From NCBI GenBank assembly GCA_946548895.1, contig CAMNQF010000001.1, forward strand, positions 62,001 through 126,000: a stretch of DNA of 64,000 nucleotides, written 5' to 3'. This document shows positions 8,774-22,816 of this stretch, piece by piece (position 1 is the stretch's first letter; every line of letters begins with the position of its first letter). Source of the stretch: an uncultured bacterium (GTDB taxonomy: Bacteria; Bacillota; Clostridia; Oscillospirales; Oscillospiraceae). The notes under the pieces were generated by a model. It was given only the letters and a program-made list of their open reading frames with translations, was not told the origin of the DNA and searched no databases. Position numbers and translations under genes: made by a program.

Positions 8774-8838
8774 AACAGACGGGGAGGATCTGGGTGAAAC
8801 CGCGCCTGCGCGGCGTCCTGGATCCTCCCCGTTCTGTT
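8774..8838. terminator. Two-way terminator between convergent genes
   Basis: A long inverted repeat with GGGGAGGATC / GATCCTCCCC as the core stem and outer AACAGA / TCTGTT pairs encloses a small inner hairpin. It sits between the DUF6514-like gene and the convergent ATPase fragment, so it can serve both. Confidence 0.65.
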
Positions 8839-9648
8839 ATTCGTCCGTCAGGGCCAGCACCTGGTCCGCCGTCTGGTCCGCCAGTTCGGCAACCCGGTCA
8901 AAGTCCACGTAGGGATTGTACAGTGCCTCCAGCCGGTCGTGGGCCGCTTTGGCCTGGCTCAGGCCGGCGATGCCCTCCTCCAGCAGGGCTGACGCGACCC
9001 GCCGGGTGAATCGCAGACGAGGCCGGTTGAGGCGGAAAACGTCCCCGTCAGCCATGGCGTCCAGGCGCAGCCTGCGGTAGGCGCGGTGAGGCCAAGGGTC
9101 CTCTTGCGTGGAGGTGATAAAGGCCAGGGACAGGCCGGGGAAGATCACATGGGCCAGCCGGTCAGGGGCCATGGGGTCCGGGCAGGCCACGGCGTCATGA
9201 CCGGCGGCCAAGCCGGCGGTGAGAATGGGGGTGAGCAGATGATGAGCCAGACCATAGTTGTCCGCCAACTCGTACACCCGCTCTGCCTGGGCCTCCACGG
9301 TGTTCCACAGGGTGAACGCCCCCCGATGAGTGACGGCGGAGAGGAAGCGCTGGCGGGCATGGCCTTCCCCCTGGTGGGGACTCTTCAGCTCCCGGCCAAT
9401 GATGCCCGCCGCGCGCTTGGCCAGCCGGAGGCGGACCTCTTCCGTGTCCAGCAGCTCGGTCATGTCCCGGCGCAGCTCTCCCGCCGCCCCCAGGCAGCGG
9501 TATACCCGCTTGTAATGGCCCTGGTATTCCGCTGTGGCGGCCAGAATGTCCGACTTTAGGGGTTGCAGCCCAGCCCGGTCATAGAAGCCGCTCAGGTCAA
9601 CGTAGCGCTCCACCGCGCCGGGGCATTGGGGCTCCACCACGTGGGGCG
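8837..9648 (-). pseudogene. P-loop ATPase (PRK06851-like), C-terminal fragment cut by the element
   Basis: This is the C-terminal about 270 residues of an ATPase whose N-terminal part is at 22542-22816. The fragment starts in the middle of a motif (GTTPHVVEPQCPGAVERYVDL) that in the intact protein should read DGTAPHVVEP, and ends with YNPYVDFDRVAELADQTADQ. The open frame continues into the element for 18 more codons that do not belong to the protein. Joining both fragments at the shared TGGGGCG gives a protein of about 358 residues, the size expected for the family as I know it. The physiological role of these ATPases is not known to me. Without a start signal of its own, this half is probably not expressed. 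Confidence 0.85.
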
Positions 9649-9665
9649 TGGTGCCAAAAGGACAC
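9625..9665. other. Left attachment junction (attL)
   Basis: Half of the site belongs to the ATPase gene (GCTCCACCACG before the core), followed by the TGGGGCG core at 9642-9648 and the element arm ending in CAAAAGGACAC at 9655-9665. The boundaries are inferred from comparison with the right junction. Confidence 0.75.
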
Positions 9666-9672
9666 AAAGGGC

Positions 9673-9714
9673 GTTCTTTTTCTTTGTAAAGAAAAAGAAC
9701 CAAAAAGAAACTTT
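9673..9714. repeat. Dispersed palindromic repeat, copy 1
   Basis: Read on the minus strand this is AAAGTTTCTTTTTGGTTC followed by a TTCTTTTTCTTT / AAAGAAAAAGAA palindrome. A near-identical copy on the plus strand lies at 27765-27803. Both sit just downstream of minus-strand genes, so they may act as 3'-end hairpins. Confidence 0.75.
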
Positions 9715-9718
9715 TAAT

Positions 9719-9737
9719 TGCGAAACAGCGTTTCGCA
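9719..9737 (-). terminator. Hairpin after the serine recombinase
   Basis: TGCGAAAC / GTTTCGCA around a 3-base loop, followed on the minus strand by ATTAAAAGTTTC. It lies 12 bp past the recombinase stop. Confidence 0.5.
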
Positions 9738-9748
9738 TGGGGTTTAGT

Positions 9749-11287
9749 TTAGAACTTCCAGGTGATCGACACGTTCTGCTGACCTGTTTCTGGGTGCTTC
9801 TCACCGATTTCGATGCAGTCGATCAGGCCAACCACCAGCTCCCGGGGGACGGTTTCCAACTTTAGCAGCTCCCGCGCCTTTTCCATCAAGTCGGCTTGCT
9901 GTTGGGGCTGCTCCCGGTTTTCAAGTTCCTCGTCGATTTTTCCAAGCCGCCGCTCCAGGCGGCTTTTTTCGTCCAGAAAGGATTGATTCAGCTCCACAAA
10001 CTGGCTTTCATTGATGACTCCGGCCACCTTATCTAAATACAACGTTTTGAGTGCTTGACTTCGTTTTTCTAACTGAGTCGCAACGGATTTTCGTTCCTGC
10101 TCCAACGCCTCCCGACGGGTATCTTTCTGCGGCTGAATGTCCTTGGCATCCAGTTCATAGTAAGTCTGGACATAGTAGCGGATGCGGTCAGATACCAACT
10201 CAATAAGCTGATCCAGCCGGACGGAGTGGCGGGTGCACAGCTTGTTCTTCCCACTGTCGGCGTACAGCTTACAGCGGAGATAGGACTGCTTGCCGTTGGA
10301 GCACTTACTCATGGTGGAACCGCAGTCAGCGCACTTCACCAGGCCGGACAGTAGGTGGGCCTCCCCAGATCCGTCCGTTTTGGTGCGCAGCTTTAAGCCC
10401 CGTTGGACGGCCTCAAAGGTGGCCCGGTCGATGATGGTCTCATGGGTGCCCTCCACTCGGTACCACTGATCCTCCGGCGTGTCGATGATGACCTTGGATT
10501 TGTAGCTCACCTTTTTCCTGCGGCCCTGGATCATCACGCCGGTGTACATTTCATTGGTGAGGATGCGTCCTACCGTCACCTTGTTCCACAGGCCGAAGTC
10601 GTTTTTTATGGGGTGGTTGCAGGTCCAACCCCGCTCTGACTTGTAGCGAGTGGGGTTGGGCACGCCCTGCTGGTTGAGCAGATAGGCGATGTTCTGCCGC
10701 CCGTGGCCTTCCAGGGACCATTGGTAAATCTGGCGCACTACCTCAGCCGCCTCGGGGTCGGGGATGATGTGGTTTTTGTCCGCCGGGTCCTTCCGATAGC
10801 CGTAGATGGGGAAACCGCCGATGTACTTGCCCTCCCGCCGCTTCAGGTCAAAGACCATGCGGACGTTTTCGGACAGGTCCTCCAAGTACCACTCGTTCAC
10901 CAGGCCGTTGATCTGGCGGGCCTTTTTGTTGCCCTTCACTTCTGTGTCGGCGTTGTCTGCCACAGCGATGAAGCGGATGCCCCAAATGGGGAACAGGCCG
11001 TGGATGTACTTCTCCACCAGTTCCATGTCGCGGGTAAACCGGGACTGGGACTTGCACAGGACAATTTGGAACTTTTTCTGCCTGGCGGCCTCAATCATGC
11101 GGTTGAAGTCCGGGCGGTCGCTGTCCACACCTGAGAAGTCCTCATCGCAGTAGATCGAGTAGATATCCCAGCTGTGGTCGATGGCGTAGTGGGTCAGCAG
11201 GGATTTCTGGTTCTGGATGCTCTCGGACTCGGGCTGGTGCTTGTCTTCATCCTCCTTACTCAGTCGTGTATAGATCGCACAAAGGAT
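9749..11287 (-). CDS. Large serine recombinase (site-specific integrase)
   Basis: The element's likely integrase/excisionase enzyme, about 512 residues. Domains in order: resolvase catalytic domain with AIYTRLSKEDED (catalytic Ser at about residue 10), SIQNQKSLL and DEDFSGVDSDRPDFNRMI; recombinase domain with GFPIYGYRKDP and VGRILTNEMYTGVMIQG; zinc ribbon LLSGLVKCADCGSTMSKC; C-terminal coiled coil of about residues 370-460. The catalytic part has no ATG, GTG or TTG before the serine motif: the frame is closed by a TAA, and the only codon at proper distance (8 bp) from the GAGGAGG site is ATC at 11285-11287, used here as the start. The first standard start, GTG 11128, would remove the catalytic serine. 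It has its own promoter at 11325-11353. Confidence 0.85.
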   Translation of the reverse strand: MLCAIYTRLSKEDEDKHQPESESIQNQKSLLTHYAIDHSWDIYSIYCDEDFSGVDSDRPDFNRMIEAARQKKFQIVLCKSQSRFTRDMELVEKYIHGLFPIWGIRFIAVADNADTEVKGNKKARQINGLVNEWYLEDLSENVRMVFDLKRREGKYIGGFPIYGYRKDPADKNHIIPDPEAAEVVRQIYQWSLEGHGRQNIAYLLNQQGVPNPTRYKSERGWTCNHPIKNDFGLWNKVTVGRILTNEMYTGVMIQGRRKKVSYKSKVIIDTPEDQWYRVEGTHETIIDRATFEAVQRGLKLRTKTDGSGEAHLLSGLVKCADCGSTMSKCSNGKQSYLRCKLYADSGKNKLCTRHSVRLDQLIELVSDRIRYYVQTYYELDAKDIQPQKDTRREALEQERKSVATQLEKRSQALKTLYLDKVAGVINESQFVELNQSFLDEKSRLERRLGKIDEELENREQPQQQADLMEKARELLKLETVPRELVVGLIDCIEIGEKHPETGQQNVSITWKF

Positions 11288-11324
11288 TTGTTACACCTCC
11301 TCAAAGGCGTAACTGCTCACTGCT

Positions 11325-11353
11325 ATGATATCGCAGGAGCAGTCGCGCCGCAA
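11325..11353 (-). promoter_or_regulatory. Promoter of the serine recombinase
   Basis: On the minus strand TTGCGG (11353-11348), 17-bp spacer, TATCAT (11330-11325), about 40 bp before the ribosome site of the recombinase. Confidence 0.6.
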
Positions 11354-11367
11354 GGATTTATTTGAAA

Positions 11368-11397
11368 ATGCCTGCGCCGATAAAACGGCGCAGGCAT
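11368..11397 (-). terminator. Hairpin ending the cca operon
   Basis: A 12-bp perfect stem ATGCCTGCGCCG / CGGCGCAGGCAT with a 6-base loop, followed on the minus strand by TTTTC. It overlaps the stop codon of the 37-residue ORF and separates the cca operon from the recombinase promoter. Confidence 0.65.
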
Positions 11398-11510
11398 CAT
11401 TTGTAGAGTTCTTTTGTGAGCCAGGCGGTAATAGTCTGATGAACGGTTTTACCGGGGAGATTGGTGCCAGATGGATGGTATTCGATGATAGTCAGAGGTG
11501 GGTCTTTCAC
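11397..11510 (-). CDS. Small ORF (37 aa) downstream of cca
   Basis: A short open frame starting at GTG 11510 with an excellent GGAGG site at 7 bp. The product begins MKDPPLTIIEYHPSGTN and ends with TVHQTITAWLTKELYK. It is soluble, has no recognisable domain, and lies 64 bp after cca on the same strand, with the operon hairpin covering its stop. The strong ribosome site and the fit between stop and hairpin are the reasons to call it a gene. Function unknown. Confidence 0.5.
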   Translation of the reverse strand: MKDPPLTIIEYHPSGTNLPGKTVHQTITAWLTKELYK

Positions 11511-11574
11511 AAAATCGCCTCCACTCAAAGATATGCTAGTCGAGGTAGAGAATATGAAAAGGCAGATATGCTAT

Positions 11575-12921
11575 TTATCCAAAACCGTCTTCGTCCTTTC
11601 GGTAAATATATTTCAAAAGAGTCTTCCGCTCGTTTGAAATTTCTCCACCAAGAACCCGCTCCAACAGCCTCTCCAGCACCCACCCCACTTCCGGCCCCGG
11701 TTCGATCCCTGCGGCAATCACATCCCGCCCATTCACCGCCAGATCCTTCAGCGTGAGGCATTGGCGCTCTGCCAGGATCCGCTCCGCTTTGGCCTTGATT
11801 TCATCCAACTCCGCCAGACGGTCTTGTACCTTTTCGGGTGCCTGTCCCATATTATCCGCCCGCTTGACCTCTAATAGCTGAAAAAATGCCTCCGATCCCA
11901 GCCGGTTGAGCCAGCGGCGGATGACCTGGCTCTTGGGCGGTAGCTGTGTGTCGTGGCGCTCCACCAGCAACACCACCCGCTCCCGGGTCTTGTTGTCGAA
12001 TTTCAGCGCCCGGAGCATCTGATCCGCCAACTGGGCGCTCACCGCCGGGTGGCCGTAGAAGTGGTCGATCCCCTTTTCATCAGTGGATTTGCAACTGGGC
12101 TTGCCAATGTCGTGGAGCAGCATGGCCAGCCGCAGGGTCACATCGGTAGGCGCCCCCTCCACGGCATGGATGGTGTGCTCCCAGCCGCCCCAGCAGTGCC
12201 AGGGGTTGTTTTGCTCCAACGTCACCAGCGGGCGCAACTGAGGCCAGAACTGGCAGAACACGTCCGGGTACTGCCGCAAAACGTCCCCGGCGTTTTGGCC
12301 CGCCAGCAGCTTGCACAGCTCCGCGTTGATCCGCTCCGCCGCCACCCGATCCAACATAGTTCGGTTTTCATGGACGGCTTGAGCGGTTTGTTCCTCAATT
12401 TCATAGCCAAATACGGCGGCAAACCGCAGCGCCCGCATCACCCGCAACCCGTCCTCCTGGAATCGCTGGTTCGGTTCGCCCACACAGCAGATCAGCTCCG
12501 CTTTGATATCATCCACGCCGCCAAAGGGGTCGCGCAAATTTCCCTCCAGATCCATAGCAATGGCGTTCATGGTAAAATCCCGGCGGGCCAGATCCTCTTC
12601 CAGGTTGGGCACGAAACGCACAAAATCCGGGCGGCGGCTGTCGGAATAGGGCCCCTCCGTGCGGTAGGTGGTGATCTCGTAGGGCTCGTCTCCCTCCAGC
12701 ACGGTGACCGTGCCGTGTTTCAGGCCGGTCTCGATAACCCGCCGGTCCGCAAAGCACTGTTCCGTCTCCTCCGGCAGAGCGGAGGTGCAGATATCCCAGT
12801 CGTGGGGTTCCACACCCCGCAGCAGGTCCCGCACACAGCCGCCCACCAGATAGGCCTCATGGCCCGCGCTGTTCAGCGTTTGGAGGATGCGCCGTGCTCC
12901 GTCAGGTATCTCAAAATTCAT
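11575..12921 (-). CDS. cca: CCA tRNA nucleotidyltransferase with HD domain (element-borne)
   Basis: A class II CCA-adding enzyme, which builds or repairs the 3' CCA end of tRNA. The 448-residue protein has the pol-beta nucleotidyltransferase head EAYLVGGCVRDLLRGVEPHDWDI with the metal-binding DxD-type Asp pair, the RRDFTMNAIAMD motif, the ED-containing FQEDGLRVMRALRFAAVFGY motif, and an HD domain with LAMLLHDIGKP and FYGHPAVSAQLA. The start overlaps the end of the upstream nucleotidyltransferase gene by 11 bp, so both are translationally coupled. Being carried on an integrated element is unusual; it may be a spare copy or a dedicated tRNA-repair gene. Base composition is close to the host's, unlike the Wadjet genes. 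Confidence 0.9.
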   Translation of the reverse strand: MNFEIPDGARRILQTLNSAGHEAYLVGGCVRDLLRGVEPHDWDICTSALPEETEQCFADRRVIETGLKHGTVTVLEGDEPYEITTYRTEGPYSDSRRPDFVRFVPNLEEDLARRDFTMNAIAMDLEGNLRDPFGGVDDIKAELICCVGEPNQRFQEDGLRVMRALRFAAVFGYEIEEQTAQAVHENRTMLDRVAAERINAELCKLLAGQNAGDVLRQYPDVFCQFWPQLRPLVTLEQNNPWHCWGGWEHTIHAVEGAPTDVTLRLAMLLHDIGKPSCKSTDEKGIDHFYGHPAVSAQLADQMLRALKFDNKTRERVVLLVERHDTQLPPKSQVIRRWLNRLGSEAFFQLLEVKRADNMGQAPEKVQDRLAELDEIKAKAERILAERQCLTLKDLAVNGRDVIAAGIEPGPEVGWVLERLLERVLGGEISNERKTLLKYIYRKDEDGFG

Positions 12922-13912
12922 CCCGCACCACCCTTTCGTTGACCTCCATCTGGAACGCCTCGATTCGAGCCAAATCAGGCGCCTCCGGCAGGGAGGTATT
13001 TTGCTTGGCGTAGTCTAACCGCTTTTCCAAATCGTTCAATAGATCATAGAAACCGGCGTTAAAGGTGTGATCTGCCTTCTGATAGCGCCCGTTTCGGATA
13101 TCCATGAGCAGGTCGTGATCCGCCTCCCGGTAGGTCACGATCTCCTCCTTTTCCAGGATATCCAGGCACATCAGATACAGCCGCACCAGGTGCATGGCGT
13201 GCTTGTTCAGGTGGGCGTCGTCCTTCTTTTTGTTTCGGTGGTGGATTTTGTCGTAATTCCGGGTGATCTCCACCAACTCCCCCATCATGCCGGTGAATTC
13301 CCGCAGGGGAACCCGCTCCATATTGATGTCCGCCAGCACCTGGGGTTTGCCGCCCGCCTCACCCACAGACAGCCTGATTTGCTCCGGGGTAAAGGTACGG
13401 TAGCGCTCCGGGAAGGAGAGCATGGCGTTCTTACAGGAGCCCATGATGTGCCGCTCCTTGACTTTGGCAGGATAGGCATCATGGGCCAGCGCATTTTCCA
13501 GCCGCCGGAGCTGCTGCCCCGCATAGCCGCCAAAGGAGTTGACCGCCCGCCGGGAGAGGAACATCTTGCGCTGGTCGAGAAGCCGCCGTCCGATGGGGTT
13601 GAGCATAAAATAGTGTTCCGGCCTGCAGCCCAGCAGTTCGATGGTGTTGGGGTTGCAGTTGATGAGCAGACCCAGCAGCTTGTTAAAGGCATATACGGTG
13701 GTATCTGTCTCTGTATCTACTACCTGCTCGAAGTCCCCCATGCCCAGCAGATCGGCTTTGCTGTTCAGGGTGCAGCCCCGGATATCAATGTCGGAACCCT
13801 CCACGTTGGTGCCGTAGGCGTAGCTGCCGCCATAGGTGAGGAAGATGATATTCTTCCCCAGGTGCGGGTCGGTTTGCAGAAAGCCGTATTCCGGCCTGTC
13901 AAGAAGTTTCAT
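12911..13912 (-). CDS. COG3541-type nucleotidyltransferase (pol-beta superfamily)
   Basis: A 333-residue predicted nucleotidyltransferase. The fold motif is clear: IIFLTYGGSYAYGTNVEGSDIDIRG, with GSxxxG...SDID as the catalytic GS/DxD pattern. The rest resembles the PF10127/COG3541 group, some members of which are RNA-end nucleotidyltransferases such as RlaP; the substrate of this one is unknown. ATG 13912 is preferred because GGAGGAG lies 6 bp upstream; an in-frame alternative at 13927 lies upstream of that ribosome site. It has its own promoter (13952-13980) and is coupled to cca, which suggests a shared role at RNA 3' ends. Confidence 0.8.
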   Translation of the reverse strand: MKLLDRPEYGFLQTDPHLGKNIIFLTYGGSYAYGTNVEGSDIDIRGCTLNSKADLLGMGDFEQVVDTETDTTVYAFNKLLGLLINCNPNTIELLGCRPEHYFMLNPIGRRLLDQRKMFLSRRAVNSFGGYAGQQLRRLENALAHDAYPAKVKERHIMGSCKNAMLSFPERYRTFTPEQIRLSVGEAGGKPQVLADINMERVPLREFTGMMGELVEITRNYDKIHHRNKKKDDAHLNKHAMHLVRLYLMCLDILEKEEIVTYREADHDLLMDIRNGRYQKADHTFNAGFYDLLNDLEKRLDYAKQNTSLPEAPDLARIEAFQMEVNERVVRDEF

Positions 13913-13951
13913 TATATGCTCCTCCAACGTTTGAATTCAAATGATAAAAAT

Positions 13952-13980
13952 AGTTTAGGGAATAAAAAAAGCTAAGTCAA
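13952..13980 (-). promoter_or_regulatory. Promoter of the nucleotidyltransferase-cca operon
   Basis: On the minus strand TTGACT (13980-13975), 17-bp spacer, TAAACT (13957-13952), 40 bp before the start. The -35 box lies in one arm of the hairpin that ends the 55-residue ORF transcript. Confidence 0.6.
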
Positions 13981-14015
13981 GAGAAAAGTGAACGGTCGCA
14001 CTTTTCCCGACTTAA
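13973..14015. terminator. Hairpin between the 55-residue ORF and the nucleotidyltransferase gene
   Basis: AAGTC and AAAAGTG pair with CACTTTT and GACTT around an 8-base loop. T-runs follow on both strands, so it can stop the minus-strand transcript of the small ORF and any plus-strand transcript. Confidence 0.6.
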
Positions 14016-14108
14016 CTTTTTATTTGGCGTTTTGTACCAATGAAGCATTGAAAAATACAGATGTTTCCATTATAATGGAATTGGTTGTTTTGTTTTCAAA
14101 TTTTTTGC

Positions 14109-14276
14109 CTATTTGTCTTGTTGTGCAATTCTTTCGTATAGGTTAAGCAAAGCGTGATTCCATCGGTCAGACAGAGCATTCCAATATTTCTGCTCTTCTT
14201 CATCCAAATGGCTCGGTACTCCCTCTGCCAAATCGAATTGTTCCTCCAGCCACCGTTTTTCCCCTGAACTGAGCAT
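14109..14276 (-). CDS. Small acidic protein (55 aa), divergent from Wadjet
   Basis: An open frame from ATG 14276 to TAG 14109, with GAGGAGG at 7 bp. The product begins MLSSGEKRWLEEQFDLAEG, continues VPSHLDEEEQKYWNALSDRW and ends NLYERIAQQDK. It is helical, acidic, and rich in Trp and Glu, with no signal or membrane segment. I do not recognise a family. It is transcribed away from jetA across a 118-bp shared control region and is closed by its own hairpin, so it forms a separate unit. An overlapping 66-codon frame lacks a ribosome site and is rejected. Confidence 0.55.
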   Translation of the reverse strand: MLSSGEKRWLEEQFDLAEGVPSHLDEEEQKYWNALSDRWNHALLNLYERIAQQDK

Positions 14277-14394
14277 AACAACGCCTCCTCAACCATTGTA
14301 ATTCATTTACTATGGGAAATTCACCGAAACATAGTGCATCCTTATGTTATTTAACCAACTAATCTGCTTTTCAGTAGAGGAATGGAGGCCCATT

Positions 14395-15816
14395 TTGCAG
14401 CTTTTCGATGTGATCCCACAGGATTTTTTCAAGCCTCTTACCGGCATTAATCGCAAAAAATACATGGATATCATTATGTTGATTTGGCTGCACTGCAAGC
14501 GAAATCCCATTTATGGCGAATCAAAGTCAGTGATTTTGGATTGGTTGGAAGATTACTTTACTGGTTTGAATGAGGAAATTTCAATCGACTCCGATGAATT
14601 TTCGAACTCCGACGAAGGAGATGCAAGTGTTTGTTCTCCCCGTTTTTATTCCTCTATGTTTTTGCGCCGTTTAAAAGAAACCGGATGGCTGGAAGAGCGG
14701 GAAGTAGGCTATGAGGAAGAACCACAGATTGTTGTCAATCACAGGATTGTCCCCATTATTCGATCTTTTCACGACGTAGTTTCCCCTCAGACGATTACAT
14801 ATAAAGGCAAGTTGTTTAAGGTTTACAAGCTGCTTCAGGATATTTCGAAGGATGAGAGCCCATATGAAAATATCCTTCGCGAAGTGTCTGGCGACTTAGA
14901 CGATTTGAATGTAGCGCTACGGCAGTTAGCCGCATCAATCGGCACTTACATGGACGAGCTGACTCGCGGCAAAAGCCCCGAGGAGATTTTAAAACTGTTC
15001 GATACCTACGAGGAAAAAGTGGTTGTGGGATCCTATCACCGATTCAAAACAAATGACAATCTTTTCTATTATCGATCTGAATTATTTGAACAGCTCGAAT
15101 TGTGCCGGACGCAATGCTTCGAAACTCTCATCAAGGATTTCTCCCTGGTGGAACAGGTATCTGACGAAGAGGCAAGCCTCGCAATAGGACGGCTGATTTT
15201 CAAATTGGAAGAAGACCTGCGGGAAATGGGCGAGATCATAAAGATAATTGACGAGAGGCATATTTTATACCGAACGCGTGCAGTTCAGCGAGCGCAGTTC
15301 CTGCTTTTATCGGACGGAACTGTCAAAAGCAAAATTAATCGAATTCTGCGCTATTGCGCTGCGACGATTAGCAGTCCCGACGATTTGTACGATGTGGATG
15401 ACGAGATATTAGCCCCCCTTTTTCAAATGTATCCGCAGGGATATTTTGATGCAAAGTCCCTAAAACCTCCCATTCAGCCCCGAATACCTACCCCCGTTGA
15501 GGAGCTTCCAGAATTGGGAGAAGTAGACGCAGAAGCCGTTTCCGCGCGGCAGGATCAGCTGTTGCAATATGCAAGAAACGCAGTTACCGCTGAAAATGTG
15601 AATCGCTTTGCTCATATGGTACTGAGGCAACGGACAGCCGTTACAGCTCGAGAGCTTGTGGATCAGCACCCACAGATACAGGATATTGTGAAAATTATTG
15701 GCCTCCACACCTACTCATCCTCCACAGAGAGAACCTTCGATATTAGCTTAAAACCAAATTTTGTGGAATGCCGCGGACTTCGATTTCAAGATTTTACTGT
15801 CCGGGAAAGAAGGTAG
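14395..15816 (+). CDS. jetA: Wadjet system protein JetA
   Basis: First gene of a four-gene Wadjet system, an SMC-like complex that recognises and linearises small circular plasmids. JetA is the kleisin-type subunit. The 473-residue protein starts QLFDVIPQDFFKPLTGINRKKYMDI, as JetA-family proteins do. TTG 14395 is chosen because GGAGG lies exactly 6 bp upstream; the ATG 17 codons before it has no ribosome site and would add residues not typical of the family. Position directly upstream of a DUF4194-like gene, an SMC-like ATPase and a Toprim-like nuclease confirms the identity. Type I, II or III cannot be fixed without comparison. Base composition is AT-richer than the host. Confidence 0.85.
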   Translation: MQLFDVIPQDFFKPLTGINRKKYMDIIMLIWLHCKRNPIYGESKSVILDWLEDYFTGLNEEISIDSDEFSNSDEGDASVCSPRFYSSMFLRRLKETGWLEEREVGYEEEPQIVVNHRIVPIIRSFHDVVSPQTITYKGKLFKVYKLLQDISKDESPYENILREVSGDLDDLNVALRQLAASIGTYMDELTRGKSPEEILKLFDTYEEKVVVGSYHRFKTNDNLFYYRSELFEQLELCRTQCFETLIKDFSLVEQVSDEEASLAIGRLIFKLEEDLREMGEIIKIIDERHILYRTRAVQRAQFLLLSDGTVKSKINRILRYCAATISSPDDLYDVDDEILAPLFQMYPQGYFDAKSLKPPIQPRIPTPVEELPELGEVDAEAVSARQDQLLQYARNAVTAENVNRFAHMVLRQRTAVTARELVDQHPQIQDIVKIIGLHTYSSSTERTFDISLKPNFVECRGLRFQDFTVRERR

Positions 15817-15822
15817 TTTTAT

Positions 15823-16416
15823 ATGAAAAGCGAAACCAAAGAGGAACTGGCCAATTATCTTTTAAATCACTGCTTTATTATTGGGAATTTGGAGGCCACC
15901 AGGGAAAAGTATTATTTGATTACGAACAATGAGGAAGAACTTCAATCTCTGTTTCGTCCTCTGGGGTATTCCATTATCGTCAACCGTAATTTGCGGGTTG
16001 CCCAGCTGGTCAATCTCCATGAGATGGGGCGAATTGAATTTCAGAAGTATGAGACCATTCTTTTGCTGATTCTGCGGCTGCTTTATGTAGAAAAGCGGGA
16101 AACCCTTTCCGTCAGTGAGCAACTGGTTTTGGTAACGGTGGAGGAAATCGAAAGGGAATACAACAAATTAAACCTACCGCGAAAACTGGATCGCCGTATG
16201 CTGGAAGCGGCCCTGCGCACCTTCAAAAGGTATAACTTGGCCCTTATGCTTGACCGGCTGGATAATTCCTCCGCCCGTATACAGATTCTTCCTTCTGTCA
16301 TGCTGGCCATGCCGGAACCGGCCATTACGAAAGCCTATGCGCAGACAAGAGAGTACCTGCTAAAATATGAAAAGGCCAATTCGAATTCCGGGATGGAGGG
16401 GCAGGCTGATGATTGA
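15823..16416 (+). CDS. jetB: Wadjet system protein JetB (DUF4194-like)
   Basis: The 197-residue JetB subunit, comparable to the KITE/MukE-type winged-helix partners of SMC complexes. The stretch FRPLGYSIIVNRNLRVAQLVN, the repeated leucine-rich helix ETILLLILRLLYVEKRE and the RRMLEAALRTFKRYNLA segment fit DUF4194. It begins 6 bp after jetA and its stop overlaps the jetC start by 8 bp (ATG at 16409), so translation is coupled. It is predicted to bind the JetA kleisin. Confidence 0.85.
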   Translation: MKSETKEELANYLLNHCFIIGNLEATREKYYLITNNEEELQSLFRPLGYSIIVNRNLRVAQLVNLHEMGRIEFQKYETILLLILRLLYVEKRETLSVSEQLVLVTVEEIEREYNKLNLPRKLDRRMLEAALRTFKRYNLALMLDRLDNSSARIQILPSVMLAMPEPAITKAYAQTREYLLKYEKANSNSGMEGQADD

Positions 16417-19400
16417 GCTGACACGTCTTCGACTCATCAATTGGCACAATTTTCAAGATGAGTGCATTCCCTTTCGGATGGTCACGTATTTGATTGGTGT
16501 CAATGCCGTCGGAAAAACCACGATTATGGACGCCATCCGCTACTGCCTGACAACCAACAAAGATTTCAACGCTGCCGGCAATCGCCAGAGCAAGCGCACC
16601 CTGCAAGGTTCCGTTCACGGAAAGCAGCGAAGCCAAAATCTCTACCTCCGTCCCGGGCATACGGTTTCTTATGTGGGCGTTGAATTTCTGGATCACGAAA
16701 AAAACACCACCTTTGTGATCACAGTTCGGGTAGAATCGGAAAGCCCAGAACAGGAACTTCGCCATGTGTTGCAGGACTGGTTTATCACAAAACCTGACGT
16801 GCGGTTTGAAGATCTCCTGTTTATAGATGAAAACCGCCGGCCATCAAAAAAAGAGGCGTTCAAAGCCTCCAGTTCTGGTATGCGCGCCCCCGCTTCCCAA
16901 AAAGAGGCAAAGAAAAACATATGCCGTATCTTGGGCATCGGCGACTCAGAATCCAGCCTCGGGAAGAAATTCAACGAAGTGTTCCACATGGGAACCTCCC
17001 TCAAAGAGATACCAGATATTCGTACATTTATTTGCACATACATCCTTCCGGAGCCAGAGATCCATGTGGAAGCTCTCCAAAGCGATATGCGAGAGTTGGA
17101 GCGTCTGGAGGAAACGCTTCAAGAAGCTCAACAGCGTGCCCAAAGTCTGGCAAAAATTGTGGAAAACAGCAGACAGGCCCTCGATTATCAGATGCAGGTG
17201 GAAATCAACGAGGGCTTTATTTTATATGCCAGACAACAGAAAAATCTCACTCAGGAAGAAGAGTATCAGAGCATCGCCGAGACTGCCAACCGCATTTTGG
17301 AGAAATTAGAGCCAGAATTAGATGCGTTGACGGAAAAGCATCAACAGGCTCAGGACGCGTTGCTTGAAGCGCTCCAAGCCAGGAATGAAAATCCGGAAGT
17401 ACAGGCAACGCAATTTTACCGGGATCAGGAAAAGGATTATCAAAAGCAGTATCGGGAGCAGGTGAAGCGGCAAAGCGACTGGGATGAAGGCTTGAAGCAG
17501 TTGAAAAAACTGATTGCCCAAATTCAGTCTTCAGGGTTGGTCAATAACATCAGCCTTCAACCAGACGAATTCTGCGAGCTGCCTTTGGAGCACCAGACGG
17601 ATATTTTAAACAAGCTCAACGGGGAATTATCGGCGCTCGAAAAACAGGTATCCAATTCCCTTTATCAATGCCGGAAAGAAAAGGATGAGGCCGATGCGGC
17701 GGTCTCGCTCCATACTCAGGAGCTGAAAAAACTCCGTGCCGGGATAATGGTTTATCCAGAGACCTCGGAGCTGCTGAAATCGGCCATCAACACAGAGCTC
17801 CAGACCCGTGGTATGGAGTGTGACGCAAAGATTGTGAGCGAAGTGCTCTATATGGAGGACGCAAGCTGGCAGGAGTGTGTCGAAGCTGCCTTAGGCTTCC
17901 GGCGCTTCGACATCATCGTTTCACCCGCCCATTATCAGGCCGCGAAGCACGTGTTCACCAGTTTGGGGGAACGTGTGGGCGACATCTCCCTGGTAAACAC
18001 GCCGGCCCTGGTGCGCGACTGCAGAAAATGGCCCCGGCCTGAGAGCAATATGTTGGCCTATAAGGTTGGGAGCGAAAATCACAGCGCGAAGCAATATGTC
18101 AACTATTTGCTGAAGGGCATCGTTTGCTGTGAGGATGCTTCGGAGTTGGAGCAGCACTCCCGAAGCGTCACACGGGATCTTTTACGCCATCAGGGCTACC
18201 GGCTGCAGCGTATGCGGCGTCCCACGCTTTTCATTGGCGCTGATGCCCGAAAGAAACGCATGATTGATTTGGAAGCGCATCTGAGGGAATTGGGCAAGAA
18301 ACAGCTGATTTTGGAACAAAAAAATGGGGAACTGAAAGCACTGGAGCAAGCGCATCGGAAGTTTCTTTTTGAGAAGCACCCGTTCTGTCTGGTCAACAAT
18401 TTGGACGCCAAGCAAAAGGTTACGGCACTAAATAATCAACTTAACGAAATTCGGGGGAAGTTAAGGGAATATGAAACCAATCCCTTGCTGGCCGCGGTGT
18501 TTGATCGCTGCAAGGCGTGTGAAGAAACCCGGGATTCGATTGCTGGGAAAATGTCGGCGTTGGAGAAGAAAATCTGGGAACAGGAGCAAATCGTCAAAAA
18601 TGCGCAGAAGATCATATTGCAAAATTTGATGGATTTAGAAGTATCAAAAGAGGATTACCACAAATTCCAGATGGATCATCCAGCGCTTACGGAGGAGATC
18701 ACGAAACGGTATACTGATGCGGTTCGGACGAAGGCCCCTTCTGAAATCGAGCGTTATCAGATGAACTACAGCAAGCAGTGCACCAACCAGAGGGACAATT
18801 ATATTTTTACGGAGCTACAACCCCTCCAGCGTGAATATAACGCGAAATATACCGCCGATTATCCCCTCGGATTAGCTGGAATTTCTTTATATCAGGACGC
18901 GTACGAAACATTGGTGGCTATTGAATTGGAGCGCTCTCTGGAAAGCCTCCGCAAGGCTCAGATTCGATGCAAAGAACGGTTTCGCAAAGAAATTTTGTTC
19001 CGCATGAAGGATGACATTAAAAATGCCAAAATGCAATTCCGGGAGCTGGATCGGGTCATGTCAGAGCTGACTTATGGCGACGAAAAGTACCATTTTATAA
19101 TTAATGAACATCAGGATAAAAAGATAGCCGCATTTTATCAAATCATCATGGACAAAAATAATATGCAGATTACAGAGGAGGACAGCTTGTTTACGCAGGC
19201 GGCCATGAATGCGCCTGCGTACGAAGCACAGGTGGACGAGCTGATGGCTAGAATTATGGCGGACGTCAATCAAGCCGCGCAGGATCGCTCCGCCGGGAAA
19301 AAGAACGTCAGCGATCAAATATCAAAATATGTGGACTACCGCACTTTTTTGAACTACGATATTGAGATAGAAAACGTTAGCACCGGCATAAAGGTTCCTC

Positions 19401-19735
19401 TCTCTCAAGTGATTGGCGACAGCAGCGGCGGCGAAAATCAGGCTCCTTTTTATGTGGCAATCTGCGCCTCTCTGCTTCAGATATACCGAAGAAGCCCCAA
19501 TAGTATACGGCTGGTTCTTTTAGATGAAGCATTCAACAACATGACCAGCGACCGCATTGAGCCTATGATGAAAATGTTCGCGGCGGCCAAACTCCAGCTG
19601 GTTCTGATATCTACAGTTGAAAAATGCAGCGCGATCTATCCCTATTGCGATATGGTCTACTCCATCGTGAAAACTGAGTCCCGGGCAATTTTAGCTCCTT
19701 TCGAAAAGCTGTATGAGGAGATGAAGGGGAAATGA
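16409..19735 (+). CDS. jetC: Wadjet system SMC-like ATPase JetC
   Basis: The 1108-residue motor of the system. Walker A is GVNAVGKT at residues 30-37; long coiled coils run on either side of a central hinge-like globular region (about residues 470-600, VSEVLYMEDASWQECVEAALGF); the ABC signature SSGGENQAPFY lies near residue 1003 and Walker B LVLLDEAF near residue 1034. ATG 16409 is chosen because it overlaps the jetB stop and follows a GGAGG; an in-frame ATG at 16367 lies inside jetB. Known JetC dimers extrude DNA loops and hand the target to JetD. The key ATPase motifs are all intact. Confidence 0.92.
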   Translation: MIELTRLRLINWHNFQDECIPFRMVTYLIGVNAVGKTTIMDAIRYCLTTNKDFNAAGNRQSKRTLQGSVHGKQRSQNLYLRPGHTVSYVGVEFLDHEKNTTFVITVRVESESPEQELRHVLQDWFITKPDVRFEDLLFIDENRRPSKKEAFKASSSGMRAPASQKEAKKNICRILGIGDSESSLGKKFNEVFHMGTSLKEIPDIRTFICTYILPEPEIHVEALQSDMRELERLEETLQEAQQRAQSLAKIVENSRQALDYQMQVEINEGFILYARQQKNLTQEEEYQSIAETANRILEKLEPELDALTEKHQQAQDALLEALQARNENPEVQATQFYRDQEKDYQKQYREQVKRQSDWDEGLKQLKKLIAQIQSSGLVNNISLQPDEFCELPLEHQTDILNKLNGELSALEKQVSNSLYQCRKEKDEADAAVSLHTQELKKLRAGIMVYPETSELLKSAINTELQTRGMECDAKIVSEVLYMEDASWQECVEAALGFRRFDIIVSPAHYQAAKHVFTSLGERVGDISLVNTPALVRDCRKWPRPESNMLAYKVGSENHSAKQYVNYLLKGIVCCEDASELEQHSRSVTRDLLRHQGYRLQRMRRPTLFIGADARKKRMIDLEAHLRELGKKQLILEQKNGELKALEQAHRKFLFEKHPFCLVNNLDAKQKVTALNNQLNEIRGKLREYETNPLLAAVFDRCKACEETRDSIAGKMSALEKKIWEQEQIVKNAQKIILQNLMDLEVSKEDYHKFQMDHPALTEEITKRYTDAVRTKAPSEIERYQMNYSKQCTNQRDNYIFTELQPLQREYNAKYTADYPLGLAGISLYQDAYETLVAIELERSLESLRKAQIRCKERFRKEILFRMKDDIKNAKMQFRELDRVMSELTYGDEKYHFIINEHQDKKIAAFYQIIMDKNNMQITEEDSLFTQAAMNAPAYEAQVDELMARIMADVNQAAQDRSAGKKNVSDQISKYVDYRTFLNYDIEIENVSTGIKVPLSQVIGDSSGGENQAPFYVAICASLLQIYRRSPNSIRLVLLDEAFNNMTSDRIEPMMKMFAAAKLQLVLISTVEKCSAIYPYCDMVYSIVKTESRAILAPFEKLYEEMKGK

Positions 19736-20937
19736 ATTATATATCCGCAATATTGGAAAAATTCATTGACGACTATGAGCGAAGGGGACTGTTTCAGGAC
19801 TTCGGCAACAAGAGCCGTCAAGGGATATTCCTTTATCCGGAAAAAATCTTTCCAGAATATACTGATTTTTACAATGAAGATGCGTATCTTGAAATCAATG
19901 AGGCCCTTGAGTTCCTCCGCCAGCAAGGTATTGTCCACGGAGATAAGGATTCCCGTGGACAATACCAAAGGCTGCAGTTTGATCCAGCGATGATTGACCG
20001 CTGTTACAAGCTGACTGACCGGGTTCCTCTGGGGGAAATCCGGCGCTCCATGAAGGCGCTGCTTTGCGCTTGGGACACGGAGCGTTGTGAGCCCTTAGAG
20101 CAGTTTCGTGCGGTTCAGTTGCAGCGTCTTCAGCAAAATAAGCCTTTGGAACATGGAATCGGAGATGACCTACAAAAGCTCCGAGATGTGACCCTTGCCT
20201 TGTCCGCTTTGATGCAGCTGCGCTCTGAAACCTATATCCGCAACTTTTCCAAAGCCGTCTTCGCGGACTCCAAACACTTTCAAAAAATCCGGGGCTGTAT
20301 TGAAGCAATTTTGTGTGCATACGGTGGACAGGCACTGACCAGGAAAACCGTTCTTAGCACCTTTAACCTTGTGGATAACCCAACCTATGTGATGTTCAAA
20401 GGACATCTGCATATTCATTTTCATGGCCAAACCCTCCATGTCGAAGACATTCCAGGCGGCATTGCACTCCCCTCTACAGCACTCCCAGCTATTGGGCAGG
20501 TATCGATTGAGGGAACGTCACTGGTAACGGTGGAAAACCTTACCACCTATCATGATGAGCAAGTGATGCAAAATGCTATCGTCTACTTGGGCGGGTTCCA
20601 TAATGCGATTCGAACTGATTTATTAAAGCATATCTACTCTAAAAATCCAAAGATATCTTTTTTTCACAAAGGCGATATTGATGTCTATGGTTTCTTGATC
20701 TTGGAAAATTTGAAATCAAAGACTGGGATTCCATTTCAGCCATTGGAGATGGATTTGGAAACACTAAAAAAGTATGAGGCCCATCGGCTTGTACAGCCCT
20801 TAAGCATCTCTGACCGAAAAATGCTGCATCTCCCGCAGCTTGCACCCTATCAGGAGGTGCTCACATATATGGAGCAGCATAACTGCAAAGCTGAACAGGA
20901 ATCACAGCAGGCATTATTGCTTATGCTTGATTCATGA
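19732..20937 (+). CDS. jetD: Wadjet system nuclease JetD (Toprim-like)
   Basis: The 401-residue JetD is the endonuclease subunit related to topoisomerase VI / Spo11. The N-terminal half is helical (DUF3322-like); the C-terminal half carries the Toprim metal site: VTVENLTTYHD near residue 265 (Glu), YLGGFHN near 284 and FHKGDIDVYGF near 312 (the DxD pair). The start overlaps the jetC stop (ATGA, 19732-19735), so all four jet genes form one coupled operon. All expected acidic residues are present, so the system looks functional. Confidence 0.9.
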   Translation: MNYISAILEKFIDDYERRGLFQDFGNKSRQGIFLYPEKIFPEYTDFYNEDAYLEINEALEFLRQQGIVHGDKDSRGQYQRLQFDPAMIDRCYKLTDRVPLGEIRRSMKALLCAWDTERCEPLEQFRAVQLQRLQQNKPLEHGIGDDLQKLRDVTLALSALMQLRSETYIRNFSKAVFADSKHFQKIRGCIEAILCAYGGQALTRKTVLSTFNLVDNPTYVMFKGHLHIHFHGQTLHVEDIPGGIALPSTALPAIGQVSIEGTSLVTVENLTTYHDEQVMQNAIVYLGGFHNAIRTDLLKHIYSKNPKISFFHKGDIDVYGFLILENLKSKTGIPFQPLEMDLETLKKYEAHRLVQPLSISDRKMLHLPQLAPYQEVLTYMEQHNCKAEQESQQALLLMLDS

Positions 20938-20999
20938 TATAATGACAAGTATATGTTACAGTTCAAATTGAAAAAATCTTTGCGGCAAAACCGTTTTAC

Positions 21000-22107
21000 C
21001 TAAATTTTTTTGATCCCCTCCCCGCACTCATCCACCAAACTGGGATCCAGATGGGCATACAGTTTGGCGGTCGTCAGCATGGTGCTATGCCCCAGCCAGT
21101 GCCGGACCTGAATCAGCGGGACATGAGCCGCCAGCAGCAGGCTGGTACAGCTGTGACGTAAATCCTGATATCGGATATGCCTCAGCCCACGGTCGCCCAG
21201 GAACTTTTTGAAGTCATGGCTCAGGACATCCGGCTTCATCATCTGCCCCTTGCTGTCAGAGCAGACAAATGTGGGGTCAACCCTTTCTTCCGCTCCCATT
21301 CGTCTTTCAGCATTGTGGTAATGGGCTCAAGCAGGGGCACCGTCCGGCGGGACGCCCTGGCCTTCATGGTGGACTTTTCCACCAAGACCCGTCTGCCATC
21401 CGCCTCAACTCCCTCCACCACAGTATGACGAACAACTACGCGGCTGCCCTCGAAATCAATGTCCTCCCACCGCAGGCCCAGCGCCTCACTGCGGCGGAGT
21501 CCATAGGCCAGCGATAACGTGACCGGCACCTCCAGTTTGGTGCCCTTGACCTCCTCAATCAATTGCTGTGCTTCCTGTAAAGAGTAGTAGCTGACTTTCG
21601 GTGGCTGGCGTTTCGGAGCTTTCAAAAACTCCGTCGGATCCTCTTGTATGATACCCAGTCTGTGCGCCTCATGGAAAACACATTTCAGCAGAGCATGGTG
21701 GTGCCGGGCCGTGGTGCTGGACAACCCATTGAATTCAAGGTAACTATAGTAGTCCTCAATATCCCAGAAGGAAATTTGCCGGAGCGGCGTGCCCCCAAAG
21801 CAGTTGGTCATGTGATGCTCCACCATGTGCCTGTAGTTGCGGTAGGTGGACGGAGAAATCTCCGGCTTGCGTTTCTCAATCCAGGCCAACGCAAAATCAA
21901 TACCACATTGGGGCGGTTTTGCTCCACCTGCTGCTTACGGGTGTATTCCGCGCACAGGGCGTTCAGTTTCTCCTGGGCCCGCCGTTTGTTGTTGGGCACG
22001 GGCAGTTCCAGGTCAAACCGCTTTTGGAGCCGCCGCCCATCCGGGTGCTTCAAGTTGAGGATTGCGTAGTATTTATCGTTGACTTCTACCAGCCTGCCTA
22101 TTATCAT
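21000..22107 (-). pseudogene. Tyrosine integrase with two frameshifts
   Basis: A tyrosine recombinase gene split over three frames. The N-terminal arm-binding part starts at ATG 22107 after GGAGGGAAC (IGRLVEVNDKYYAILNLKHP). A shift around 21895-21910 leads to the core-binding part (FALAWIEKRKPEISPSTYRN) and the first catalytic Arg in YGLRRSEALGLRWEDID. A second shift near 21275-21290, in an A/G-rich run, leads to HIRYQDLRHSCTSLLLAAHV, VRHWLGHS and the catalytic Tyr in TTAKLYAHLDP. Every catalytic residue remains encoded, so the damage is only in the frame. It is probably a remnant of an older element; sequencing error in the two runs is the alternative. Confidence 0.85.
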
Positions 22108-22188
22108 GGTTATGTTCCCTCCTGCAATCGTTCTGCAATTTCTTTTAGCTTTTAGGTCATGATTTACGGCTAAAAAAGTATATCAAAA

Positions 22189-22224
22189 AACCGACGATCA
22201 AACGAAATAGTTTGATTATCGGTT
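22189..22224. repeat. Inverted repeat upstream of the broken integrase
   Basis: AACCGACGATCAAAC pairs imperfectly with GTTTGATTATCGGTT around a 6-base loop. The rest of 22108-22519 is AT-rich with further short palindromes (for example TTGCATACTTTTGCAA near 22300) but no gene that I can support. Confidence 0.6.
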
Positions 22225-22519
22225 ACTATATTCAACATTAAAATTTATGGAAAAACAGGCTCATCGGACTCACAACCCGACGAGTTACCCTCTCTCGGTT
22301 GCATACTTTTGCAAATCAAGCGTTTCTGCCTGATTTATTCCATTTTAAAGTCACTTTTGTTTTATAGGATTCGCAATCAACTTGCAATCTTCACGTTTTA
22401 TTCAGCCGGGTTCAAGGGAGGGCCGGCTGTTTTCATTTTAAGGGCGTTTTTTCTCCGGGCCGCCAGGCCCGAAGAGCGAGCAGTTACGCCTATCATTTCA
22501 AACAGCTTGTCCCCCCAAA

Positions 22520-22565
22520 GTGTCCTTTTGATACCACCCCCTGGGGCGCCGTACCGTCTACCAGC
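22520..22565. other. Right attachment junction (attR)
   Basis: The element arm GTGTCCTTTTGATACCAC at 22520-22537, the TGGGGCG core at 22542-22548, then ATPase gene sequence (CCGTACCGTCTACC). Joined to the left arm (TGGTGCCAAAAGGACAC) through the shared core, it gives a nearly perfect dyad, as expected of a serine-recombinase attP. Confidence 0.75.
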
Positions 22566-22816
22566 GCCGCTCCCAGCTGCGGCAGCACTAGTGCGTCCAG
22601 GGAATCCGGGTCGCCGGAGCACAGTACCTGTTCCGTTTCCAGGCCCACAGCCTGGGCATGGCGTTCTACCCGGCGCATGAAGGTGGATTTACCGCTGCCC
22701 GGCCCGCCCTTGATGATGTACAGCGCCCGGATCCGGGCTGGGTCGGACAGCTGATGGTAGAGGGAATAAAAACCCGCGGGCGTGTTGCCGCCCAGAAAGT
22801 ACTGTATGTTGGGCAT
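22542..22816 (-). pseudogene. P-loop ATPase (PRK06851-like), N-terminal fragment
   Basis: The N-terminal about 92 residues of the ATPase cut by the element. It starts at ATG 22816 after GGAGGAGG (8 bp) with PNIQYFLGGNTPAGFYSLYHQL, contains the Walker A motif IKGGPGSGKSTFM, and ends at LVDGTAP at the TGGGGCG core. The frame then runs 16 codons into the element before a stop. The fragment keeps its start signals and could still be translated as a truncated nucleotide-binding peptide of about 107 residues. See 8837-9648 for the other part. Confidence 0.85.

Follow-up and report, generated by a model that had tools for sequence, protein, structure and literature searches.

Published work names only a few sporulation genes that are split by excisable elements: sigK, spsM, spoVFB, spoVR, gerE and yabG (PMC5595907, PMC5025042, PMC10747680; here and below, papers are cited for those of their passages that concern such elements or the target gene). 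In the skin element of Clostridioides difficile, which interrupts sigK, the recombinase has a sigmaA promoter and inverted repeats that cover its start and ribosome-binding site, and the skin factor CD1234 is placed under sigmaE control in the mother cell (PMC5025042) and has 53 amino acids (PMC10747680). The gin element of Bacillus cereus, described from one strain, occupies gerE, is 28.6 kb long and carries three serine recombinases, the small factor GirX and a restriction-modification system (PMC5595907), while yin lies in yabG of C. botulinum, vfbin in spoVFB and SPbeta in spsM (PMC10747680). Here we consider a window, by which we mean the whole stretch of 64,000 nucleotides that was analysed (G000:C1:62001-126000), from the genome of an uncultured Oscillospiraceae bacterium (G000; 3.8 Mb in 116 contigs), in which a gene of the PRK06851, or dual-wield NTPase, family is split at its His92 codon by a 12,900-bp element. 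Our contention, which we regard as probable, is that this is a skin-type sporulation gene-intervening element in a new target gene, with a type I Wadjet system as cargo and with excision in the mother cell promoted by a small factor.

The locus resembles the C. difficile skin element in combining a large serine recombinase (here with a housekeeping-type promoter), a small reading frame with a sigmaE-type promoter and a split mother-cell gene. It departs from skin in its target, in the lack of recognised phage genes among the annotated cargo, in the position of the small frame directly upstream of the recombinase and in a predicted AUH start codon, and its excision is something that we infer. 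Like gin, it is a non-phage island in a mother-cell gene with a serine recombinase and a small factor, in our case a candidate, and the restriction-modification system that gin carries is a further parallel; gin differs in its target, its greater length and its three serine recombinases. With yin, vfbin and SPbeta it shares a location in a sporulation gene, the target of vfbin being a dipicolinate-synthesis gene, but those elements are prophage-like and occupy other genes, whereas the present family is found in many genera at one site. Its Wadjet system has the same four jet genes as Wadjet type I and is here carried within a gene-splitting element. The element, its junctions and the two parts of the gene are placed as follows.

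9642..22541, no strand: integrated element, 12,900 bp
9642..9665, no strand: left junction, with TG at 9642-9643 as crossover dinucleotide and the recombinase-proximal attP arm at 9644-9665
22520..22543, no strand: right junction, with the distal attP arm at 22520-22541 and TG at 22542-22543 as crossover dinucleotide
22542..22816, minus strand: 5' part of the PRK06851/dual-wield NTPase gene, from codon 1 up to and including the second base of codon 92
8837..9643, minus strand: 3' part of the same gene, codon 92 onward

An earlier note on this DNA had proposed two halves of one gene with a serine recombinase at the left end, and a heptamer, TGGGGCG, repeated at 9642 and 22542; both proposals are borne out, the repeats being exactly 12,900 bp apart and the recombinase frame stopping 107 bp inside the left end. 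Since the heptamer is in itself frequent in the window (14 copies on the plus strand and 7 on the minus), the evidence for the element lies in its place within one gene, the restored reading frame and the dyad. When the outer flanks are joined precisely, in sequence alone, they form a single open frame of 359 amino acids from the ATG at 22816, which reads DGTAPHVVEPQ across the join, the other two frames having many stops; restoration of the frame at the common core was the test set by the note, and it is passed. Both halves match NCBIfam PRK06851 models, each half alone falling below the whole-protein cut-offs, and a gene search of G000 returned exactly these two pieces and no intact copy.

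The inner ends, when joined, give an attP of GTGTCCTTTTGATACCACCCCC-TG-GGGCGTGGTGCCAAAAGGACAC that is symmetrical at 19 of 22 positions around TG, a dyad score reached by just two placements in the native window and exceeded by none (all placements tested, with gaps of 0 and 2). Its arm GTGTCCTTTTGATACCAC, with up to 2 mismatches, is present in the 3.8-Mb genome at these two ends only. We were able to rebuild attP for 17 of 18 elements tried, L115 yielding no pair, and the elements in this set measure 4,450 to 18,348 bp. A GTGTCC...GGACAC-like arm is visible in most of them, but dyad scores range from 5 to 19 of 22, so that the near-perfect dyad claimed earlier holds for the window and not as a general rule. 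The common core has been refined in the same way: TGGGGCG is indeed present at both ends of the window, but across relatives the sole sequence common to both junctions is the CA of the gene strand (on the plus strand of the window, TG), which supplies bases 1 and 2 of the His92 codon and is also the centre of the dyad. On this comparison the crossover dinucleotide is the TG at 9642-9643 and 22542-22543.

The site has been used repeatedly, as the note had suspected. The best 80 of 156 recombinase relatives were kept, representing 79 loci, of which 10 are genomes of the genus set again and L070 is the same as G068, so locus and genus counts are not independent. The recombinase adjoins half of the NTPase gene in 62 of the 79, with the 3' half within 1.5 kb after the recombinase in 36 and the 5' half in 26, and the hosts of these loci extend from Oscillospiraceae to Clostridium, Alkaliphilus and Thermobrachium. 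Cultured strains among the 79 loci include Clostridium magnum DSM 2767 (L103), Flintibacter muris DSM 110149 (L041) and Flavonifractor plautii ATCC 29863 (L072). Five further loci were set aside for a contig end or an incomplete recombinase match, and 12 have neither half within 1.5 kb after the recombinase: L059 and L090 carry the 5' half at the opposite side of it, L033 and L071 show complete attP-like junctions, and L039, L074, L096, L098, L102, L105, L106 and L107 are situated elsewhere. From sequence comparison, then, integration at the His92 codon, a site used by many relatives, can be regarded as established, together with the element's ends and target. No published case of an element in a PRK06851/dual-wield NTPase gene was found in a literature search of open-licence PMC papers, although a recombinase survey (PMC10083194), judged by the passages cited, may include this target unnamed.

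Several loci merit separate mention. L096, L102, L106 and L107, from Faecalibacterium/Gemmiger and with more distant recombinases, have another target gene in common after the recombinase. In L033 (10001-13406) a complete attP-like site lies between two facing recombinase genes, as in two elements joined head to head. L071 has such a site after its recombinase (at about 4838) and no NTPase gene in its 13-kb contig; this contig was considered as a closed circle, but it has no terminal overlap, so a circle and a tandem arrangement are indistinguishable. In L116 (G015:C1:55300-75100) the gene halves are in reversed order, with the 3' half first and both on the plus strand, which implies further rearrangement or an assembly error there.

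Among 42 genomes of the same genus, the NTPase gene is intact in 26, which supplies the intact relatives that the note had named as a check; it is in two pieces cut at the site in 9, represented by a single half cut at the site in 4 (G018, G023, G024 and G029) and without a match in 3. Two of the genomes counted as intact, G007 and G012, have one stop within the match. A recombinase of at least 70% identity is present in 12 of the 13 interrupted genomes, the exception being G029, which is 69% complete, and a full-length recombinase is present in none of the 26 intact genomes and none of the three that lack the gene (Fisher p = 3e-9); matches of 42-45% identity represent another recombinase and are excluded from this tally. 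One genome counted as intact, G032, has the first 72 residues of a recombinase at a contig end, beside RlaP and CCA pieces. In this genome (loci L192 and L199) the intact NTPase gene is on one contig and the RlaP-CCA-recombinase start on another of 3.4 kb, a pattern that may represent the excised form, a mixture of strains or another site.

The two orientations of insertion are informative about the crossover. In the gene the CA does not vary, and a change in the side on which the recombinase lies therefore requires the dinucleotide to be turned round with respect to the recombinase. Comparison of L112, where the recombinase lies by the 3' half, with L114, where it lies by the 5' half, is consistent with this: the proximal arms (GTGTACTAA and ATGTACTAA) are alike, as are the distal arms (GTGTCCTTTTG and GTGTCCTTTGG), and the centre is flipped. 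That orientation is set by the central dinucleotide is established for serine integrases, and the natural insertions described here appear to follow the same rule; natural cases of both orientations were absent from the matches listed in our literature search.

The target gene itself argues for a link with sporulation. The dual-wield NTPases correspond to the PRK06851 family, the C. difficile member being CD3298, and Asp87 and His92 are among their candidate functional residues (PMC10949312). The DGTAPH motif of the window protein starts at residue 87; if its numbering equals that of PMC10949312, as we infer, attB would lie on predicted active-site codons, and this would explain its conservation. 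Spores of a CD3298 mutant contain less than 1% of the normal dipicolinate, and expression of the gene is confined to the mother cell and controlled by SigE (PMC5509370); calcium-dipicolinate is likewise reported as largely undetectable (PMC10449524), and the gene is listed with a sigmaE promoter (PMC3789822). According to the last of these papers, sigmaE promoters have ATA and sigmaK promoters AC in the -35 region, and their -10 sequences are closely similar. A sigmaK-type motif, AC-N16/17-CATANNNTG, occurs no more than 160 nt upstream of 49 of 66 distinct NTPase copies, split or intact, compared with 21 of 1991 control starts. Given this motif and the homology to CD3298, besides the matches to PRK06851 models, the split gene is probably a sporulation-specific one, to judge its function by homology, and probably used in loading spores. 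The host genome contains spoIVA and spoVAD, and its sigmaE exceeds the family cut-off.

The recombinase and the sequences that may control it are arranged at the left end of the element.

9749..11287, minus strand: large serine recombinase, with a putative ATC start codon at 11287-11285
11290..11313, minus strand: putative hairpin over the recombinase ribosome-binding site, with mixed folding support
11325..11353, minus strand: housekeeping-type promoter of the recombinase, TTGCGG-N17-TATCAT, read by eye
11397..11510, minus strand: 37-aa reading frame upstream of the recombinase, candidate recombination directionality factor
11528..11557, minus strand: sigmaE-type promoter of the small frame, TCATATT-N15-CATATCTT
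22478..22490, plus strand: one copy of the 13-mer GAGCAGTTACGCC, near the distal end; a second is at 11306-11318 (minus strand) in the recombinase leader

The recombinase, of about 500 amino acids, has the Resolvase, Recombinase and zinc-ribbon domains (PF00239, PF07508 and PF13408) of a large serine recombinase, all above cut-off, and scores too low to be assigned to the SCC cassette (Ccr) or fdxN (XisF) types (98 of 900 bits for CcrB and 100 of 375 bits for XisF). Ahead of its catalytic serine motif the window gene has no in-frame ATG, GTG or TTG; instead, a stop is followed by CAA-ATC-CTT-TGT, directly after GGAGGTG. The corresponding column in 62 loci reads ATC in 27, ATT in 16, ATA in 5, GTG in 5, ATG in 3, TTG in one and five other codons once each. 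Of the 48 with ATH, 34 have no ATG, GTG or TTG after the last in-frame stop, and for this reason a near-cognate AUH codon is the likeliest start where it is forced; in the remaining 14 an upstream start is possible. Gene callers would truncate members of a family with such a start.

The small frame encodes 37-53 amino acids, with the consensus MKxxxLxLxE...I..AVxxWLxKEL in which Met, Glu and Leu are invariant (26 aligned), and it is the only small gene retained beside the recombinase while other cargo changes. It is preceded by a sigmaE-like motif, TCATATT-N14/15-CATANNNT, mostly 16-22 nt ahead of its start. In a hand-picked set, comprising 31 of 74 loci chosen for a W-L signature less one dropped because no start was found, the strict pattern is present in 21 of 30 loci and at 4 of 2487 control starts. 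Without selection, the pattern is present in 43 of 74 regions upstream of the recombinase, compared with 35 of 2677 random windows, the 43 being divided between 39 of 57 loci with a recombinase of at least 55% identity and 4 of 17 below that value. Two of the latter four are Clostridium loci (L094 and L104) that keep small frame and motif with recombinases of 47-48% identity; a third Clostridium locus, L093, also keeps the small frame and is too near a contig end for the unselected count. The Clostridium small frames were found through the motif, and so are not independent evidence for it. The element has its own recombinase and, under a sigmaE-type promoter, a candidate directionality factor.

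Between the small frame and the recombinase, the window has a terminator-like hairpin and the housekeeping-type promoter. Support for the second hairpin, in the recombinase leader, is divided: 94.6% of cells pair, and just 7 shuffles in 500 match its covariation score, yet there is no surplus of compensating pairs (121 of 500 shuffles are as high) and two of five single folds are no better than shuffles. In the window, L112, L113 (with one mismatch), L114 and L115, the 13-mer GAGCAGTTACGCC stands in the leader and again at 40-45 bp from the distal end; it is a possible binding site for a control protein.

The remainder of the element is cargo.

11575..12921, minus strand: CCA-adding tRNA nucleotidyltransferase
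12911..13927, minus strand: RlaP-like nucleotidyltransferase
14344..20937, plus strand: Wadjet type I jetA, jetB, jetC and jetD
21000..22107, minus strand: tyrosine recombinase, broken into open pieces that lie in different frames

Wadjet is an anti-plasmid defence system; here jetA-jetD stand together, and all four best match the PADLOC JetA1-JetD1 models. Cargo in relatives was surveyed from 100 listed frames, of which 20 proteins were scanned with Pfam and 9 with PADLOC. L112, L114 and L115 have the tyrosine recombinase, RlaP and the CCA enzyme in common; the contigs of G002 have the tyrosine recombinase and the CCA enzyme, L113 and L050 have RlaP and the CCA enzyme, L047 the CCA enzyme, and L063 and L065 the tyrosine recombinase. 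Defence cargo is common but not universal: L113 carries JetC/JetD of type II Wadjet together with a PDC-M28 candidate, L114 (5165-10238) a UG5-nitrilase reverse transcriptase and a RecQ/DpdF-like helicase, and L052 and L065 PDC-S01 candidates, but L117 has a pyruvate-formate-lyase-like pair and L047 a flagellin. No phage structural or replication genes were found among ten window proteins scanned, and neither a phage nor a plasmid record matches the recombinase at 60% identity or more; a single viral contig has a relative of 39% identity, which leaves a phage or plasmid origin unsupported.

The sole CCA-adding enzyme found in the host genome is, with RlaP, inside the element, and the enzyme is also within the element in G014, G022, G037, G039 and, over two contigs, G002. 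Capture of an essential gene, or addiction, through this enzyme was considered and ruled out, since all 32 distinct tRNA genes read (from 45 tRNA matches in 30 fetched loci) encode CCA; by the same token it is probably a repair enzyme.

In proposing how the element operates, we suggest that in growing cells the recombinase would be made at a low level, owing to the housekeeping-type promoter, the hairpin over its ribosome-binding site and the AUC start. Serine integrases alone do not recombine attL with attR, and so the element would stay integrated. During sporulation, sigmaE in the mother cell would switch on the 37-aa factor, which would turn the recombinase toward excision; the NTPase gene, re-joined in frame and transcribed from its own sigmaK-like promoter, would then serve in loading the spore with calcium-dipicolinate. 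The mother cell dies, whereas the forespore chromosome would retain the element and its defence cargo. Insertion would therefore be cheap for the host, and this would account for the repeated use of the site. On balance, though with less confidence than for the window itself, we favour extending this to the family: a widespread clade of serine-recombinase islands, from gut Oscillospiraceae to Clostridium, specialised on the predicted active-site codons Asp87-His92 of the dipicolinate-loading NTPase as a low-cost harbour that is often used for defence; leaving only in the doomed mother cell by means of a sigmaE-switched mini-protein; throttled by a non-AUG start and a hairpin; and able to enter in both orientations, since attP arms that are nearly symmetrical leave the choice to the central dinucleotide.

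A number of observations weigh against this interpretation. Excision in the mother cell is deduced from promoters and from analogy with skin. The sigmaK-like factor of the host is below the family cut-off, as is that of Bacillus subtilis in the same test, and a spoVAD match is absent from the interrupted genomes G002 and G015. G004, G019 and G027, of the same genus, have spoIVA and no match to the NTPase gene, so the gene is not required by all. The sigmaE-type motif is missing from 31 of the 74 upstream regions, including those of the close relatives L033, L035 and L085, and from all but the 4 of 17 mentioned where recombinase identity is below 55%; nor does the small frame have a Pfam match above cut-off (5 tested) or a known family. 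Finally, not one of the 28 split genes that were read (27 distinct, with L054, L091 and L103 covered in part) has an in-frame stop, but many of the insertions may not be old enough for the genes to have decayed: split and intact tips alternate in the gene tree of the genus and close split relatives differ in orientation, indicating that insertions are repeated and often recent. The ratio of nonsynonymous to synonymous substitution (dN/dS) does not settle function while split, being about 0.07-0.26 for close split pairs in the genus and, over all pairs, having saturated medians (0.495 split-split, 0.301 intact-intact, 0.483 mixed) that do not favour split genes.

The rival that survives best, though we think it unlikely, is an ordinary integrative genomic island, for which the NTPase gene is a conserved, dispensable landing site; it would exit only to move, and carriers would lose the gene's function and sporulate poorly or not at all. 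Repeated gain and loss with changing orientation, the defence cargo and the relatives that have no NTPase gene altogether would all suit such an island, but a sigmaE-type motif far above controls is unexpected before a transfer factor, the target is a mother-cell gene, as in known intervening elements, and split copies remain open. We are similarly doubtful, and slightly more so, that excision is regulated but that the small frame serves the recombinase as a regulator or leader peptide, with the directionality factor encoded by another gene. At just 37-53 amino acids and without a known family, the small frame might be such a regulator, and an additional DNA-binding factor is suggested by the 13-mer, which occurs both in the leader and close to the distal end; against this, no other small gene is kept beside the recombinase as cargo varies, and known element factors are small and sporulation-controlled, like the 53-residue CD1234. 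That the element is a stuck relic is highly improbable, for while the recombinase lacks an in-frame ATG, GTG or TTG ahead of its catalytic region and the tyrosine recombinase is in pieces in different frames, the ATC/ATT/ATA column is kept in 48 of 62 relatives, 34 of them with no alternative start, recombinase matches contain no internal stops and the family is clearly mobile.

A skin-type intervening element in the NTPase gene is therefore the interpretation we prefer. One target gene and one recombinase clade recurring over many genera are new relative to the few published cases, and provide natural attP/attB pairs together with natural examples of orientation following the dinucleotide. 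With such recurrence it becomes possible to test why genes of the dying mother cell attract elements, and whether sporulation can serve mobile immunity as a haven.

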